Part shown: positions 4,283 to 21,168 of the stretch, one piece after another
Position numbering within the stretch: position 1 is the first letter of the stretch
Layout: the number at the start of each line of letters is the position of its first letter
From: a virus
IMG/VR virus record: IMGVR_UViG_3300025759_014081
Coordinates: 1-33,621 of that record
Reading direction: 5' to 3' (one strand)
Length of the DNA: 33,621 nucleotides
Made by a program: the position numbers and the translations under genes
The notes under the pieces: generated by a model
Databases searched by the model: none
What the model was told of the DNA's origin: nothing
What the model saw: only the letters and a program-made list of their open reading frames with translations

Positions 4283-4536
4283 TGGATGATTATGATATTT
4301 TTGAAGGAATGCTTAACGAACTCGAAGCCTTGTCTAAGAGGTCTGTAGCACTGATTGGGGATGAGGTCTTAGACGATAATTGGTTTCTGCGTGTAGAGTC
4401 CAACGATAAGGTCTATGAAGATATTGCCATAGAGATGGTGAATCGTTATGTGGATTCAGGTGCTTGTGAAGAATGGTCGGCAAACCAATGGGCATTCTGG
4501 TTTATCAATGGCATTCTTGATAAGAGGTATGTGTGA
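4282..4536 (+). CDS. small acidic protein of unknown function
   Basis: 84 residues, strongly acidic at the N-terminus (MDDYDIFEGMLNELEAL), with several Trp residues near the C-terminus (EEWSANQWAFWF). Translationally coupled to the gene before it by TAATG, with GAGGAGG just upstream. No recognised family. The downstream gap contains the second hairpin-promoter cassette. Confidence 0.7.
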   Translation: MDDYDIFEGMLNELEALSKRSVALIGDEVLDDNWFLRVESNDKVYEDIAIEMVNRYVDSGACEEWSANQWAFWFINGILDKRYV

Positions 4537-5792: not shown

Positions 5793-5935
5793 TGCTACAT
5801 ACATTACTTGTTTGCACGATACTCTTGTGCTTTGCTTGGATTTTCGCTAAACTTTCGTATGAATTACTGAAGATGATATTTGCAAATCCAGTATGGGCGA
5901 TTATCATTTGTTTCATATTGCTGTCATTAGTATAG
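5792..5935 (+). CDS. small membrane protein, 47 residues
   Basis: TAATG overlap with the previous gene. Almost entirely hydrophobic: one segment at residues 3-20 and a second at about 31-46, joined by a short KLSYELLKM linker, so probably two membrane spans. It could affect the host inner membrane. No family recognised. Confidence 0.6.
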   Translation: MLHTLLVCTILLCFAWIFAKLSYELLKMIFANPVWAIIICFILLSLV

Positions 5936-15052: not shown

Positions 15053-15325
15053 CTAATCAAGTGTTTCTAGTTTGGTCAGTCTTGCTTCCAAATCGTCTAT
15101 TTTGCTGGTGATTTTTGGGTACTTTTTTCTCCAAGCTTCTGGATCATTTTGTAACCAAGTCCAACCCCAACGAATGGCTAGATATTCAAGAAATCCGTCG
15201 AATTTAGCGACACCCCACGTAGCCATTTTTGTATCTTTAAACCAAAATAAAAACGCTGCACCAAGCAGTGATCCTGCAATAGCTGTGTAGATCCACAGCG
15301 TATCATCAAACATTTCTGTTAACAT
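15053..15325 (-). CDS. small membrane protein with C-terminal coiled coil
   Basis: 90 residues: one span (about 9-28, LWIYTAIAGSLLGAAFLFWF), an amphipathic Trp-rich middle and a C-terminal coiled coil (KITSKIDDLEARLTKLETLD). Overlaps the lipase gene by 20 bases, so the two are translationally linked. Could be a spanin- or holin-related envelope protein. Confidence 0.65.
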   Translation of the reverse strand: MLTEMFDDTLWIYTAIAGSLLGAAFLFWFKDTKMATWGVAKFDGFLEYLAIRWGWTWLQNDPEAWRKKYPKITSKIDDLEARLTKLETLD

Positions 15326-16088
15326 CTACTTCTTCTCCGGTGTATTGTGAATAATATGCAGAGCTGTGATCGAAGAAGTTATCAAATGGTTGACCCTTCT
15401 TCAATGCAGCCCAACGACCTTTCATTTTATCTCTGAATCGAGCCCACCAAGTTAAATTGGCATGAATGTTACCGTGAAAATCGATATACATTGGGCCACA
15501 ATGATGACGATAACCCATAAGAGCTAAAGGTACTGTTGGTACTATATCATTGTTATTAACAAAACGAAAATGTTTCACATGTTCAAACGCCTTCACAAAG
15601 GCTTTGGTTCCTGTTCTTGGTGAACCGTATGTGAATAAACAATTAACATTTATATCCATTGAAAATCGCGATGCAGCAACAGTAGCCATAGCACCGCCTA
15701 AAGAATGTCCGCATAAAGTTAATTTCTTACCTAGATGTGGTGTTATTTCTCTAGTGATAACAGGCCATAATTTTTCTAATTCATTTTGAAAACCATTGTG
15801 AACTTTGCCATGACCAATCATGGGTTCATCGGGCCAAGCGTTAAGATCTGCAAGGATGTCTGTAAATTCTGAAGGTTCTGTTCCTCTAAACGCAATAGCA
15901 ACTTCATCTTTATTCCACACAACATGACACTGTGCTCCATCAATATCGATGAATTTGTGTCCTGTCCATCCTAGTTTTTTAAATTTGGGTTTTGCTTCAG
16001 GACCATCTAAATAAGCTTCTTGGGCCATAACCGCGTGCCTATGACACTCAACAACATCTTCATGACAAAAATCTATTTTCTTATTCAC
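15306..16088 (-). CDS. class 3 (fungal-type) lipase / esterase
   Basis: 260 residues from GTG at 16086-16088, chosen because a GGAG ribosome-binding site lies 8 bases upstream; the frame extends to a TTG at 16121 with no such site. An alpha/beta hydrolase with the nucleophile motif GHSLGG (Ser129), Asp181 in NNNDIVPTVP and His241 in DHSSAYY. Other family marks are the oxyanion segment AFRGTE (about 66-71) and YGSPRTGT. Lipase_3 enzymes cleave acyl esters of triglycerides or phospholipids. There is no signal peptide, so access to the membrane may depend on the neighbouring small membrane proteins. Lysis or membrane remodelling is the likely role. Confidence 0.85.
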   Translation of the reverse strand: MNKKIDFCHEDVVECHRHAVMAQEAYLDGPEAKPKFKKLGWTGHKFIDIDGAQCHVVWNKDEVAIAFRGTEPSEFTDILADLNAWPDEPMIGHGKVHNGFQNELEKLWPVITREITPHLGKKLTLCGHSLGGAMATVAASRFSMDINVNCLFTYGSPRTGTKAFVKAFEHVKHFRFVNNNDIVPTVPLALMGYRHHCGPMYIDFHGNIHANLTWWARFRDKMKGRWAALKKGQPFDNFFDHSSAYYSQYTGEEVDVNRNV

Positions 16089-16124
16089 AGATTTTTCTCC
16101 GTTAAAAATTTTAGCATTCAATTG

Positions 16125-16132
16125 TATTTATT
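16125..16132 (-). promoter_or_regulatory. late-promoter-like octamer (one mismatch)
   Basis: On the minus strand the sequence is AATAAATA, one base from TATAAATA, about 37 bases upstream of the lipase GTG. It would be a late promoter for the lipase and membrane-protein block. Weak because of the mismatch and AT-rich context. Confidence 0.35.
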
Positions 16133-16149
16133 ATTTTTTACAAAAGGGG

Positions 16150-16178
16150 TTGACATTTGTGTATATATAGTGTAGAAT
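16150..16178 (+). promoter_or_regulatory. sigma70-like promoter of the bfd-tmRNA-bilin block
   Basis: TTGACA (16150-16155), 17-nt spacer, TAGAAT (16173-16178), preceded by AAAAGGGG. Same family as 3939, 4625, 5541 and 19312. It lies 17 bases before the BFD-like ATG, and I see no other promoter before the bilin reductase. Confidence 0.85.
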
Positions 16179-16194
16179 TACCGGATTAGTAAAC

Positions 16195-16356
16195 ATGTAT
16201 ATATGTATATGTAACGCCATTACAGAATCTGATCTCGCTGAGAACAGTTTTTTACTTCCCATTATAGGAAGCAAATGTGGAAAGTGTATAGAAGAACAAT
16301 TTATTAATGATGGCGAACGTGTTACGTATTTAACCAATTCTAAGAAGCAAAACTGA
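16195..16356 (+). CDS. mini BFD-type [2Fe-2S] protein
   Basis: 53 residues, too short for most gene callers. The opening MYICICNAITESDL and GSKCGKC match bacterioferritin-associated ferredoxin (Fer2_BFD). Cys4, Cys6, Cys28 and Cys31 form the CxC...CxxC cluster ligands. The central helical part is about ten residues shorter than in E. coli Bfd. Bfd reduces bacterioferritin to release iron; related domains pass electrons to other enzymes. Here it precedes heme oxygenase and a ferredoxin-dependent bilin reductase, so it may be a dedicated electron donor or iron-handling partner (inference). No strong Shine-Dalgarno is visible. The last codons overlap the predicted tmRNA acceptor piece. Confidence 0.8.
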   Translation: MYICICNAITESDLAENSFLLPIIGSKCGKCIEEQFINDGERVTYLTNSKKQN

Positions 16357-16590
16357 AAGCTGTGCGGACGTGGGTGCAAATCCCACCACCTCCACCAATA
16401 AACTTCAATGGGGGGTGTACTAGATTCGACGGGCGGTAAATAAGAATTGTGGAGAATCGTCAAGTACTGACGTTAAAAAGAACGCACTAAATATAAACGC
16501 AAACGATAATGTTTATGACATGCCAATGGCTGCCTAGCGGCAATAGCTATTGACGGGGTTTCGGGATCGCCTGGCAACAGAAAGGTCCCA
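16331..16590 (+). ncRNA. ssrA: circularly permuted (two-piece) tmRNA, tag ANDNVYDMPMAA
   Basis: The 3' half comes first: T-arm GTGGG-TGCAAAT-CCCAC and acceptor strand CACCTCC plus ACCA, ending at 16398. After a short spacer the 5' half starts with GGGGGTG (16410-16416), which pairs with CACCTCC. The pairing includes the G3-U70 wobble that marks alanyl-tRNA synthetase substrates. Then comes the tmRNA D-loop signature TAGATTCGACGGG. AGAATTG (16443-16449) pairs with CAATTCT (16335-16341), joining the two pieces (P2). The tag reading frame runs from GCA 16499 to TAG 16537 (ANDNVYDMPMAA), with the stop in a small TGCC/GGCA hairpin loop. This order is the permuted form known from alphaproteobacteria. 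The exact ends are estimates. Confidence 0.9.
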
Positions 16591-16602
16591 CTTATTTTTT
16601 TT
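16563..16602 (+). terminator. hairpin plus T-tract at the tmRNA 3' end
   Basis: GGGATC (16563-16568) pairs with GGTCCC (16584-16589), followed closely by eight T residues (16595-16602). It looks like an intrinsic terminator or the 3' helix of the tmRNA coding piece. Heme oxygenase begins 15 bases later, so its expression would need read-through unless another promoter exists. Confidence 0.6.
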
Positions 16603-16616
16603 GGGGTATTTCGCGT

Positions 16617-17231
16617 ATGTCTAACAATCTTAAAGAATTGACTTGGGAGCACCATCAAAATGCTGAGAGAACTGAGTTCGCAAATATATTAATTGATGGA
16701 GATATACATCCAAGGCTTTATCAAAAATATTTACATTCACAACTCATTATTTACTCAACACTCGAGTCGCTTGTTGATTTACCTTTAAAGTTAGAGGGTG
16801 TTTTTAGATCTTCTCTTATTCTGGAAGATTTGCAAGAGCTTGAAGCAGAACATCGTTTAAAGGAGCTTACAGATTTTTTACCTTCGGTTGACGATTACGT
16901 TGAACATTTAAGTCATCTGGATAATGAAAGTTTGATTGCACACGTATATGTTCGGCATTTTGGAGATATGCATGGCGGACAAATTATTAAAAAGAATGTA
17001 CCCGGTTCTGGTTTGATGTATGAATTCGAGAATCGTTCTGATCTCATAGCTGGTATCAGAGAACTTTTAAATGATGACATGGTAAAAGAGGCCAAAATAT
17101 GTTTCAGCTTTGCTGAAAGATTATTCTATGAGCTAATAGATTTTTGGCGATTAGAAGATGGGTTAGATGAAATCACAAGTTTCATAGATCCTGAATACGA
17201 AAACGAGTCTGATTACAATGACGACTATTAA
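16617..17231 (+). CDS. heme oxygenase
   Basis: 204 residues, normal for bacterial/phage HO. The N-terminal TxxxHxxAE motif gives the proximal heme ligand His13 (TWEHHQNAE, 9-17). The distal helix is FGDMHGGQ (115-122), equivalent to the canonical GDLSGGQ with Ser replaced by His. HO opens heme to biliverdin, CO and Fe(II) using electrons from ferredoxin or another reductase. The bilin reductase at 17413 would use the biliverdin. The C-terminus has an acidic extension (EYENESDYNDDY) not needed for catalysis. Possible Shine-Dalgarno GGGG at 16603. Overlaps the next small gene by 14 bases. Confidence 0.9.
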   Translation: MSNNLKELTWEHHQNAERTEFANILIDGDIHPRLYQKYLHSQLIIYSTLESLVDLPLKLEGVFRSSLILEDLQELEAEHRLKELTDFLPSVDDYVEHLSHLDNESLIAHVYVRHFGDMHGGQIIKKNVPGSGLMYEFENRSDLIAGIRELLNDDMVKEAKICFSFAERLFYELIDFWRLEDGLDEITSFIDPEYENESDYNDDY

Positions 17232-17397
17232 CTATAACGACTGCCTGATCGGCGGAGGAAAAAAAATACAATTAATGGAAGCAATGAATAAAATTTTAAA
17301 TAAGCTTAATACTACAGAAAATATGCAAGCCGCAGAAATTGTCATTATTGGTGTAATCATGTTTGGATTGTTTGTACCAATAGCACAATTGGCTTAA
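17218..17397 (+). CDS. small single-span membrane protein between HO and bilin reductase
   Basis: 59 residues if started at ATG 17218 (overlapping the HO stop), or 40 if started at ATG 17275, downstream of GGAGG. An amphipathic N-terminal part precedes one membrane helix (about 40-57, EIVIIGVIMFGLFVPIAQLA). The I-x-I-G...LFV-x-P pattern recurs in the 18693 protein. The position between two bilin enzymes suggests a membrane anchor or partner (inference). No known family. Confidence 0.6.
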   Translation: MTTINYNDCLIGGGKKIQLMEAMNKILNKLNTTENMQAAEIVIIGVIMFGLFVPIAQLA

Positions 17398-17412: not shown

Positions 17413-18102
17413 ATGGACAGTGTGATTTGGAATAGACTAAGGTTGCTATCTAACGAAATCGAAAATATTTTCGACCAAAATCTTGCTCGCTATGAAAACC
17501 CAAAACTGACAAAACATTTTGATGGTTGGACTGATAAGTTTTGGAAATCTGAATCTATTAGAAAGGCTCACTTAAAAATTATTGAACCAGGAACAGAAGG
17601 AAATAAAAAGCTTTGGTTGTTACACATTAATGTGTTTCCGCAACCTTGGATGAATCTTCCTATCCTTGGATTTGATATTGTCTCAGGACCAAATAAAATT
17701 AGCGGGTCGTTTATGGACTACTCGCCGGTTTCGAGTGAGAATCATTCTTATATGGAATACTTTGCAGGATTAACTTCTAATCTGAGCTGGAAGAAAGAAA
17801 GAGAACTTCCTGAGTGGGCTCTTGAAATCTTTTCACCAAACATCGTGGCGGCGGGTGGAATTGATAATGAAAATGAGCTTGAACAATTTTGTAAAGTAGG
17901 ATTGACTTCTGTTTCGTTTTATATGAACGGGATTACCTCAAAAGTTTATCGAAACATGGGTCAAGATTTTTTACCAGCTCAAAATAAGTATTGCCATAAT
18001 CAAAAGAAAAACGTACAATTACATCGCTCAATTTTATCGATGGGTATATCAGAAGAAGATAAAAACGACTACGTCAATAATGTTCTCTTCGAAGAATTGT
18101 GA
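17413..18102 (+). CDS. pcyX: ferredoxin-dependent bilin reductase, PcyA/PcyX-like
   Basis: 229 residues, matching FDBR size. The core HINVFPQPWMNLPILGFDIV (71-90), SGPNKISGSFMDYSPVSS (91-108), and C-terminal QNKYCHNQKKNVQ (190-202) with VLFEEL end are the FDBR hallmarks. The GFDIVxGP...S...DYSP form is closer to PcyA than to PebA/PebB/PebS. Asp102 in DYSP lines up with the PcyA catalytic Asp (Asp105). By position, no Glu or His stands where PcyA has Glu76 and His88. This fits PcyX, the virus-encoded branch reported to make phycoerythrobilin from biliverdin. Needs reduced ferredoxin; heme oxygenase upstream supplies biliverdin. Product assignment is inferred. Confidence 0.85.
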   Translation: MDSVIWNRLRLLSNEIENIFDQNLARYENPKLTKHFDGWTDKFWKSESIRKAHLKIIEPGTEGNKKLWLLHINVFPQPWMNLPILGFDIVSGPNKISGSFMDYSPVSSENHSYMEYFAGLTSNLSWKKERELPEWALEIFSPNIVAAGGIDNENELEQFCKVGLTSVSFYMNGITSKVYRNMGQDFLPAQNKYCHNQKKNVQLHRSILSMGISEEDKNDYVNNVLFEEL

Positions 18103-20238: not shown

Positions 20239-21168
20239 ATGGCACAAACAGATTTTGCCTCACTTAAGAAAAACCGCAATAAGTCCCTCGACAAGTTGAC
20301 TTCTCAGCTTGATAAAATGTCATCTAAGTCCTCGTACTCAGATCCAAACGAAGGTAAGTTTTGGAAACCTACTCGCGATAAAGCTGGTAATGGGTTTGCA
20401 ATTATTCGTTTCCTACCTGCCCCTAAAAATGAAGAAATGCCGTTTGTTCGCATTTGGGATCATGGATTCCAAGGCCCTACTACTGGTCAATGGTATATCG
20501 AAAACTCTTTGACTACACTTGGTCAAGACGATCCTGTTTCCGAGTTTAACTCTAAACTATGGAACTCTGGAATTGATTCCGACAAAGATCAGGCACGTAA
20601 GCAAAAGAGACGACTCAAGTATGTTTCAAACATTTACGTAATTAAAGATTCAGCCAAGCCTGAGAATGAAGGTAAAGTATTCTTGTACTCATTTGGCAAA
20701 AAAATCTTTGATAAGCTCAATGATTTGATGAACCCATCTTTTGAAGATGAGAATCCCGTTAATCCTTTCGATTTCTGGGAAGGTGCAAACTTTCGTTTGA
20801 AAATTCGACAGTTTGAAGGATATCCTAATTACGATAAGTCTGAGTTTGATCCACCAGAACAACTTGCTGATGATGACGACCTTGAATCTATTTGGGAACA
20901 ACAGCACTCTCTTCAAGAGTTGCTTGATCCTAAAAACTTCAAGACCTATGCTGAATTAAAAGCTAAGCTCTATCGAGTACTTGGTGAATCAGCTGAGGTT
21001 TCTCGCAGTCAAGATAACTTTGAAAATGATGAAGATAATGAACTTGACTTGAGTTCACTTGGTAAAACTGCTGAAGCTCCTAGTATGCAAGAGAGTACTA
21101 GTGAGTCACCTTCTATTGACGATGATGACGATGATTTGTCAATCTTTAAGGAACTCGCTAAAGGTTAA
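20239..21168 (+). CDS. 32: single-stranded DNA-binding protein (T4 gp32)
   Basis: 309 residues. The N-terminal basic B-domain (FASLKKNRNKSLDKLTSQLD) provides cooperativity. The OB-fold core contains FWKPTRDKAGNGFAIIRFLP and WDHGFQGPTTGQWYIENS. The acidic C-terminal tail (DDDDDDLSIF) recruits replication partners. No cysteine occurs anywhere, so the T4 zinc site (His and three Cys) is absent; YIENSLTTLGQDDPVSEFN stands where T4 has its Cys cluster. AAGGAG ribosome-binding site. Ends at a strong terminator. Confidence 0.95.
   Translation: MAQTDFASLKKNRNKSLDKLTSQLDKMSSKSSYSDPNEGKFWKPTRDKAGNGFAIIRFLPAPKNEEMPFVRIWDHGFQGPTTGQWYIENSLTTLGQDDPVSEFNSKLWNSGIDSDKDQARKQKRRLKYVSNIYVIKDSAKPENEGKVFLYSFGKKIFDKLNDLMNPSFEDENPVNPFDFWEGANFRLKIRQFEGYPNYDKSEFDPPEQLADDDDLESIWEQQHSLQELLDPKNFKTYAELKAKLYRVLGESAEVSRSQDNFENDEDNELDLSSLGKTAEAPSMQESTSESPSIDDDDDDLSIFKELAKG

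Follow-up and report, generated by a model that had tools for sequence, protein, structure and literature searches.

The 53-codon open reading frame (ORF) at 16195-16356 (+) of the window (the whole analysed stretch of 33,621 nucleotides, from an IMG/VR virus record) is a real gene under purifying selection, and its product, here called mini-Bfd, is related to Bfd (bacterioferritin-associated ferredoxin), the small iron-sulfur protein by which bacteria free the iron kept in their storage protein bacterioferritin, a homology which is shown at the level of the family by profile comparison. The window's member comes from a marine phage, and the family is widespread and phage-only. Judged from sequence comparisons, the chances are about even that the protein is a miniature Bfd which passes electrons to the bacterioferritin of the host and so mobilises iron; by this means the phages may draw on the iron stored by the host.

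Table 1. Positions of the features around the mini-Bfd gene in the window, and of the in-frame fusions in related phage loci
Feature	Position	Strand	Remarks
Class 3 lipase	15306..16121	-	PF01764, E 1e-22; divergent neighbour; same side in L001 and L036/L037
Promoter-like TTGACA-N17-TAGAAT	16150..16178	+	11/12 consensus matches; consensus match only
Mini-Bfd ORF	16195..16356	+	53 aa, 53 codons; CxC-x21-CxxC; Cys4, Cys6, Cys28, Cys31
First Cys pair, C4-I5-C6	16204..16212	+	Invariant in alignment A2, search-biased
Second Cys pair, C28-G-K-C31	16276..16287	+	C28, G29 and C31 invariant in 53 phage sequences
Permuted tmRNA	16337..16537	+	RF04321, 119.6 bits; RF01849 (98 bits) and ARAGORN tmRNA* extend to about 16592-16628
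Heme oxygenase (HO)	16617..17231	+	PF01126, E 2e-19
Small ORF between HO and FDBR	17218..17397	+	59 aa, hydrophobic C-terminal segment; no convincing family
Ferredoxin-dependent bilin reductase (FDBR), PcyA/PcyX type	17413..18102	+	PF05996, E 1e-19
Mini-Bfd-exonuclease fusions, in frame	L111:1094-3040; L112:4001-5953; L116:4001-4759; L120:4001-4759; L125:3727-4476; L126:4001-4765		

The translation of the ORF is MYICICNAITESDLAENSFLLPIIGSKCGKCIEEQFINDGERVTYLTNSKKQN. An earlier note, made from the sequence of the window, had described a product of 53 residues with four cysteines in a CxC...CxxC arrangement, and this description is borne out. The window contains a single instance of the motif M-x(1-3)-CxC-x(15-35)-CxxC, against a mean of 0.013 in order-1 Markov windows. 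Between the ORF and its nearest relative (locus L001), dN is 0.105 and dS 1.18 (dN/dS = 0.09), codon position 3 takes 19 of the 31 changes, and the two proteins are 87% identical despite the high dS; in further pairs with measurable dS, dN/dS ranges from 0.07 to 0.38. A chance ORF is ruled out by the purifying selection against L001 and the rarity of the motif in the Markov windows, and an antisense ORF of 110 aa at 16131-16463 (-) was set aside because the codon-position pattern tracks the sense frame. The weak ribosome-binding site remarked on in the earlier note is a property of the window (CCGGATTAGTAAACATG is a poor Shine-Dalgarno sequence), but not of the sister locus L001, which has AAGGA at a normal distance from the ATG. 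The leader expected from the promoter-like sequence is only about 9-11 nt long, and such a short leader could explain the poor site.

The gene order in the window is lipase (-), promoter, mini-Bfd, permuted tmRNA, HO, small ORF and FDBR. The promoter is retained in L001, and an equivalent promoter arrangement is found in L001 and L036. The tmRNA gene, of the alphaproteobacterial permuted type, is circularly permuted (two-piece), with the 3' tRNA-like piece upstream of the 5' piece; marine phages are known to carry two-piece tmRNA genes (PMC9004378). The ORF had been placed before the tmRNA, which is correct for its start but not for its 3' end, where the last six codons and the stop (about 20 nt, 16336-16356) overlap the tmRNA, the Rfam match of which begins at 16337. 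AUUCU at 16337-16341, encoded by codons 48-49, is the 5' strand of tmRNA helix P2, and AUUC is also kept in L036, where the ORF is absent. Therefore, the last codons serve both the protein and the tmRNA; a protein gene here shares sequence with a two-piece tmRNA precursor.

L036 and L037 have the same genes as neighbours on either side, and in them the promoter leads straight into the tmRNA, without mini-Bfd. Mini-Bfd is therefore an optional gene set between promoter and tmRNA, and because of this position it can be expected to share a transcript with the pre-tmRNA, perhaps one that extends to HO and FDBR. The FDBR of the window scores 101.7 bits against the NCBIfam PcyA model, under the cut-off of 206. 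Short hydrophobic proteins lie between HO and FDBR or beside FDBR not only in the window (17218-17397) but also in L036 (about 4321-4446) and L038 (about 5798-5917). The window ORFs at 20239 and 19594, which we take to be gp32- and gp59-like, point to a T4-like phage.

The search for relatives in IMG/VR gave 31 loci with the single query and 102 with an alignment, and the 80 loci that were kept represent 53 distinct phage sequences, the window included. The conservation of the cysteines in related phages, on which the earlier note had staked its assignment, is complete: all four are present in 53/53 sequences. Positions C4, C6, C28, G29 and C31 are invariant across the alignment, although the N-terminal invariance is inflated because most relatives were retrieved by MYxCICN patterns. 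In the six relatives that came to light solely by their proximity to exonuclease or NifU genes, Y2 is always present, and position 5 is I in five and V in one. The sole departures from CICN that were found are variants with T7 or V5 (L230:3846-4040 and L231:6178-6345). The gap between Cys6 and Cys28 is 21 residues in 47/53 sequences and 17 in 6/53. One x17 member (L030:5001-5486) is continuous with a 120-aa in-frame region that has no Pfam match, but an internal ATG makes this fusion uncertain.

Taken singly, the window's protein scores below the cut-offs, with 16.2 bits against Fer2_BFD (PF04324; gathering cut-off 26) and 22.1 bits (E = 1.3e-4) against NCBIfam Bfd (PRK10509; cut-off 75). The name of 'very short BFD-type ferredoxin' given to it earlier, for which a profile search was proposed, is thus supported for the family rather than by the single sequence: 47/53 members match Fer2_BFD at E ≤ 1 (best 6e-6), and when the profile of all 53 sequences (A2) is compared with the PDB sequences, the only matches below 0.01 are the P. 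aeruginosa Bfd entries (E = 7e-5). The window's protein has no convincing PHROG, and tblastn with mini-Bfd gave no match in the 50,697 phage records of INPHARED; on these grounds, together with the scores below the Pfam and NCBIfam cut-offs, the family is likely to have been unannotated so far. No report of a phage-encoded Bfd was found in the open literature, a search that left most subscription journals outside.

At the level of structure the evidence is weaker. In AlphaFold models the core (residues 1-30) reaches a pLDDT of 80-95 and contains two short helices (11-16 and 18-23), and the tail is of low confidence. The top Foldseek entries for both models are Bfd chains, but the matches are weak (probability 0.75, then 0.18), as is the VIA Z against Bfd (2.0, then none), and a BFVD structure search gave no match. 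When bacterial Bfds were added to the alignment, the pLDDT of the model rose and the Foldseek match fell, so that the evidence from the fold stays weak. Compared with Bfd, mini-Bfd has lost about ten residues where helix 1 ends and helix 2 begins (part of the α1-α2 region), and the segment that forms a helix after CxxC in Bfd is also missing.

Bacterial Bfds were scanned for in one genome per species with the motif MY[VIL]CICNx[IV], and 54 loci with tblastn similarity were obtained. The Cys gap is 30-32 in 53 of these 54 loci that share the N-terminal motif, and a published Bfd Cys pattern has a gap of x32 (PMC11133741); with a gap of 21, the central part of the window's protein is indeed some ten residues shorter, as the earlier note had stated. 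The sole bacterial locus with a gap of 21 (L159; DNHN01000359.1, a contig of a 'Bacteroidetes' MAG) encodes a protein identical to that of phage locus L105, and is probably of phage origin, having entered the MAG bin as a contaminant. Being the only such bacterial match, it gives no ground for a bacterial origin of the short form. A ferritin-family gene (PF00210) lies 106-416 nt from the MY[IVL]CICN gene in 25/25 bacterial genomes tested, as expected if the bacterial genes are true bfd genes.

In Bfd of P. aeruginosa (Pa-Bfd), Y2 and L5 sit in clefts on bacterioferritin (PMC13136788). By sequence comparison, M1-Y2 plus C4-I5-C6 of mini-Bfd are the counterpart of this contact motif: phage mini-Bfd retains M1-Y2-x-C-I5-C, with Y2 kept and I5 a conservative replacement of L5. 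Four BFD domains that form part of larger proteins, NifU-like ones among them, were sampled in the same bacterial order, and the position of Y2 is occupied by L, V or E in these. Pa-Bfd has a structural anion site made up of R26, R29 and K46, and the phage protein does not retain these residues at the equivalent positions.

Of the two functions suggested earlier, iron release from bacterioferritin and electron donation to HO and the bilin reductase, the former is favoured, because the M1/Y2/I5 contact motif is kept and the bacterial counterparts adjoin a ferritin-family gene. Mini-Bfd would hold one [2Fe-2S] cluster, be reduced by a host NAD(P)H-ferredoxin reductase, bind to the bacterioferritin of the host by way of M1, Y2 and I5, and hand the electrons to the bacterioferritin heme, whereby stored Fe3+ would be reduced to Fe2+ during infection. 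The freed iron could feed iron enzymes of phage and host, such as ribonucleotide reductase, or the Fe-S clusters supplied through the NifU-like scaffold of the phage. Many mini-Bfd phage records are without bilin genes, as expected of a general infection function, and the presence of a NifU-like scaffold in what looks like the window's phage (contig G032, below) is counted for iron release. Counted against it are the lack of a ferritin gene in the 32 phage mini-Bfd records searched, the loss of the anion-site residues, the weak structure matches and the α1-α2 deletion.

The family has other associations as well. In six distinct sequences mini-Bfd forms the N-terminal part of a PD-(D/E)XK exonuclease (phrog_298, E = 5e-75; PF12705), joined in frame at the point where the unfused exonuclease homologues start (MFNH[IL]P...), which suggests another or an additional partner for mini-Bfd. 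Two of the fusions (L111 and L112) have an extra C-terminal region of about 390 aa without a Pfam match. In other phages, free x17 mini-Bfds follow the exonuclease match at a distance of 75 nt (L307-L310) or about 1.1 kb (L314-L321). Contig G032 (IMGVR_UViG_3300025769_000116, 59.7 kb; L034 and L225), which matches the window at 99.95% identity in the 6.5 kb compared, starting at 16585, and by that identity looks like the same phage, encodes both the exonuclease, unfused, and a NifU-like scaffold, elsewhere than at the mini-Bfd locus. From these observations mini-Bfd could act in DNA processing as an Fe-S module, either as a domain of the exonuclease or as its partner, with a structural or redox-sensing cluster and with the free copies acting in trans. 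This is considered unlikely, since only 19/79 exonuclease loci have a mini-Bfd, fused or within about 4 kb, most mini-Bfd loci are distant from an exonuclease, and the bacterioferritin-contact residues are retained even in the fusions. A similarly doubtful proposal combines the two functions: a minimal Bfd module, about 32 residues long, might be both a free unloader of host bacterioferritin and the [2Fe-2S] domain of the phage exonuclease, tying iron or redox state to DNA processing.

The second function suggested earlier, in which mini-Bfd would replace the host ferredoxin as the electron donor of the adjacent HO and FDBR in bilin making, has been weakened and is now thought improbable. Mini-Bfd shares the strand, and probably the transcript, with HO and FDBR, which begin 260 nt and 1.06 kb downstream, and the arrangement recurs in L001. 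Moreover, a plant-type ferredoxin is generally absent from FDBR phages (PF00111 in 1/46 records, inside a 1002-aa frame), so that this ferredoxin was rejected as an alternative donor. However, FDBR and HO occur together in only 2/32 of the first mini-Bfd records (the window counted) and FDBR in 0/50 further ones, that is, FDBR in 2/82, and conversely the mini-Bfd profile matches only 2/44 FDBR records; the records of both sets are fragments. The remainder of the FDBR records includes two truncated copies of the window's phage (L034 and L035), which are 99.95-99.98% identical to the window but begin just 3' of the ORF and are uninformative for mini-Bfd. L036 and L037, in contrast, are intact across the locus, and there, with an FDBR 76% identical, the order lipase-tmRNA-HO-FDBR is kept without mini-Bfd. 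The combination of mini-Bfd with the bilin genes is thus confined to the window's phage and one sister, and the cassette is also found on its own.

NifU has a BFD-type [2Fe-2S] domain in its middle, and mini-Bfd might accordingly be the redox partner of the phage NifU-like scaffold, that is, part of a split NifU. A NifU-like scaffold gene (NifU_N) lies within 2 kb in 13/53 representative mini-Bfd loci, across several unrelated mini-Bfd types, and NifU is present in 8/15 large mini-Bfd records selected independently of NifU and exonuclease; the other seven, which are fragments, show none. A mini-Bfd is within reach in only 4/80 NifU loci, however, and its N-terminus is Bfd-like and unlike that of NifU, which makes the split quite unlikely. 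The associations with exonuclease and NifU, though real, are incomplete, and the family as a whole is not explained by any one partner. It is very unlikely that mini-Bfd is a Zn-binding or clusterless derivative which occupies the bacterioferritin site and blocks iron release, as might be argued from the missing ten or so residues and C-terminal helix and from another marine phage system in which iron storage increased in virocells, with Bfd undetected (PMC12282109), since the four Cys and their exact spacing are retained and Pfam zinc-ribbon matches are few and weak (8/53 members, best E 0.018).

Published work deals with the iron of phage tails and with altered iron storage in the host, and iron handling in virocells has been called less known (PMC12282109). 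Mini-Bfd bears on the iron supply for virus production in iron-poor seas, and a phage unloader of bacterioferritin, if true, would make the iron sourcing of virocells directly testable with one protein of 53 residues, which would be unusually small for the [2Fe-2S] protein proposed.

Among known systems, the HO-FDBR cassette of the window is of the kind of the phage HO-PcyX cassettes (PMC11480375), in the main text of which the word Bfd is absent; the window adds mini-Bfd and the permuted tmRNA ahead of HO. Cyanophage PetF, a plant-type ferredoxin present in 44/153 genomes (PMC10452541), is likewise a phage-encoded [2Fe-2S] carrier and auxiliary gene, the cluster of mini-Bfd being predicted, but it belongs to the unrelated Fer2 family (PF00111), of which the window has no member. 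With the Fer2_BFD domains (the NifU middle domain and those of larger reductases) mini-Bfd shares the CxC...CxxC scheme of Fe-S binding; it differs in being free-standing, in falling below the Pfam cut-off and in its Y at position 2, which the sampled domains of larger proteins lack. The closest likeness is to Bfd itself (E. coli PRK10509; P. aeruginosa 4E6K/6E6R), with which it has in common the N-terminal M-Y-x-C-[IL]-C with contact positions 2 and 5, a second pair CGKC preceded by G, and a length of about 50-70 aa. In contrast to Bfd, in which the gap is 30-33, mini-Bfd has a gap of 21 or 17, no C-terminal helix and no anion-site residues, and, unlike the bacterial proteins, it is not encoded beside bfr, but by phages, and is sometimes fused.
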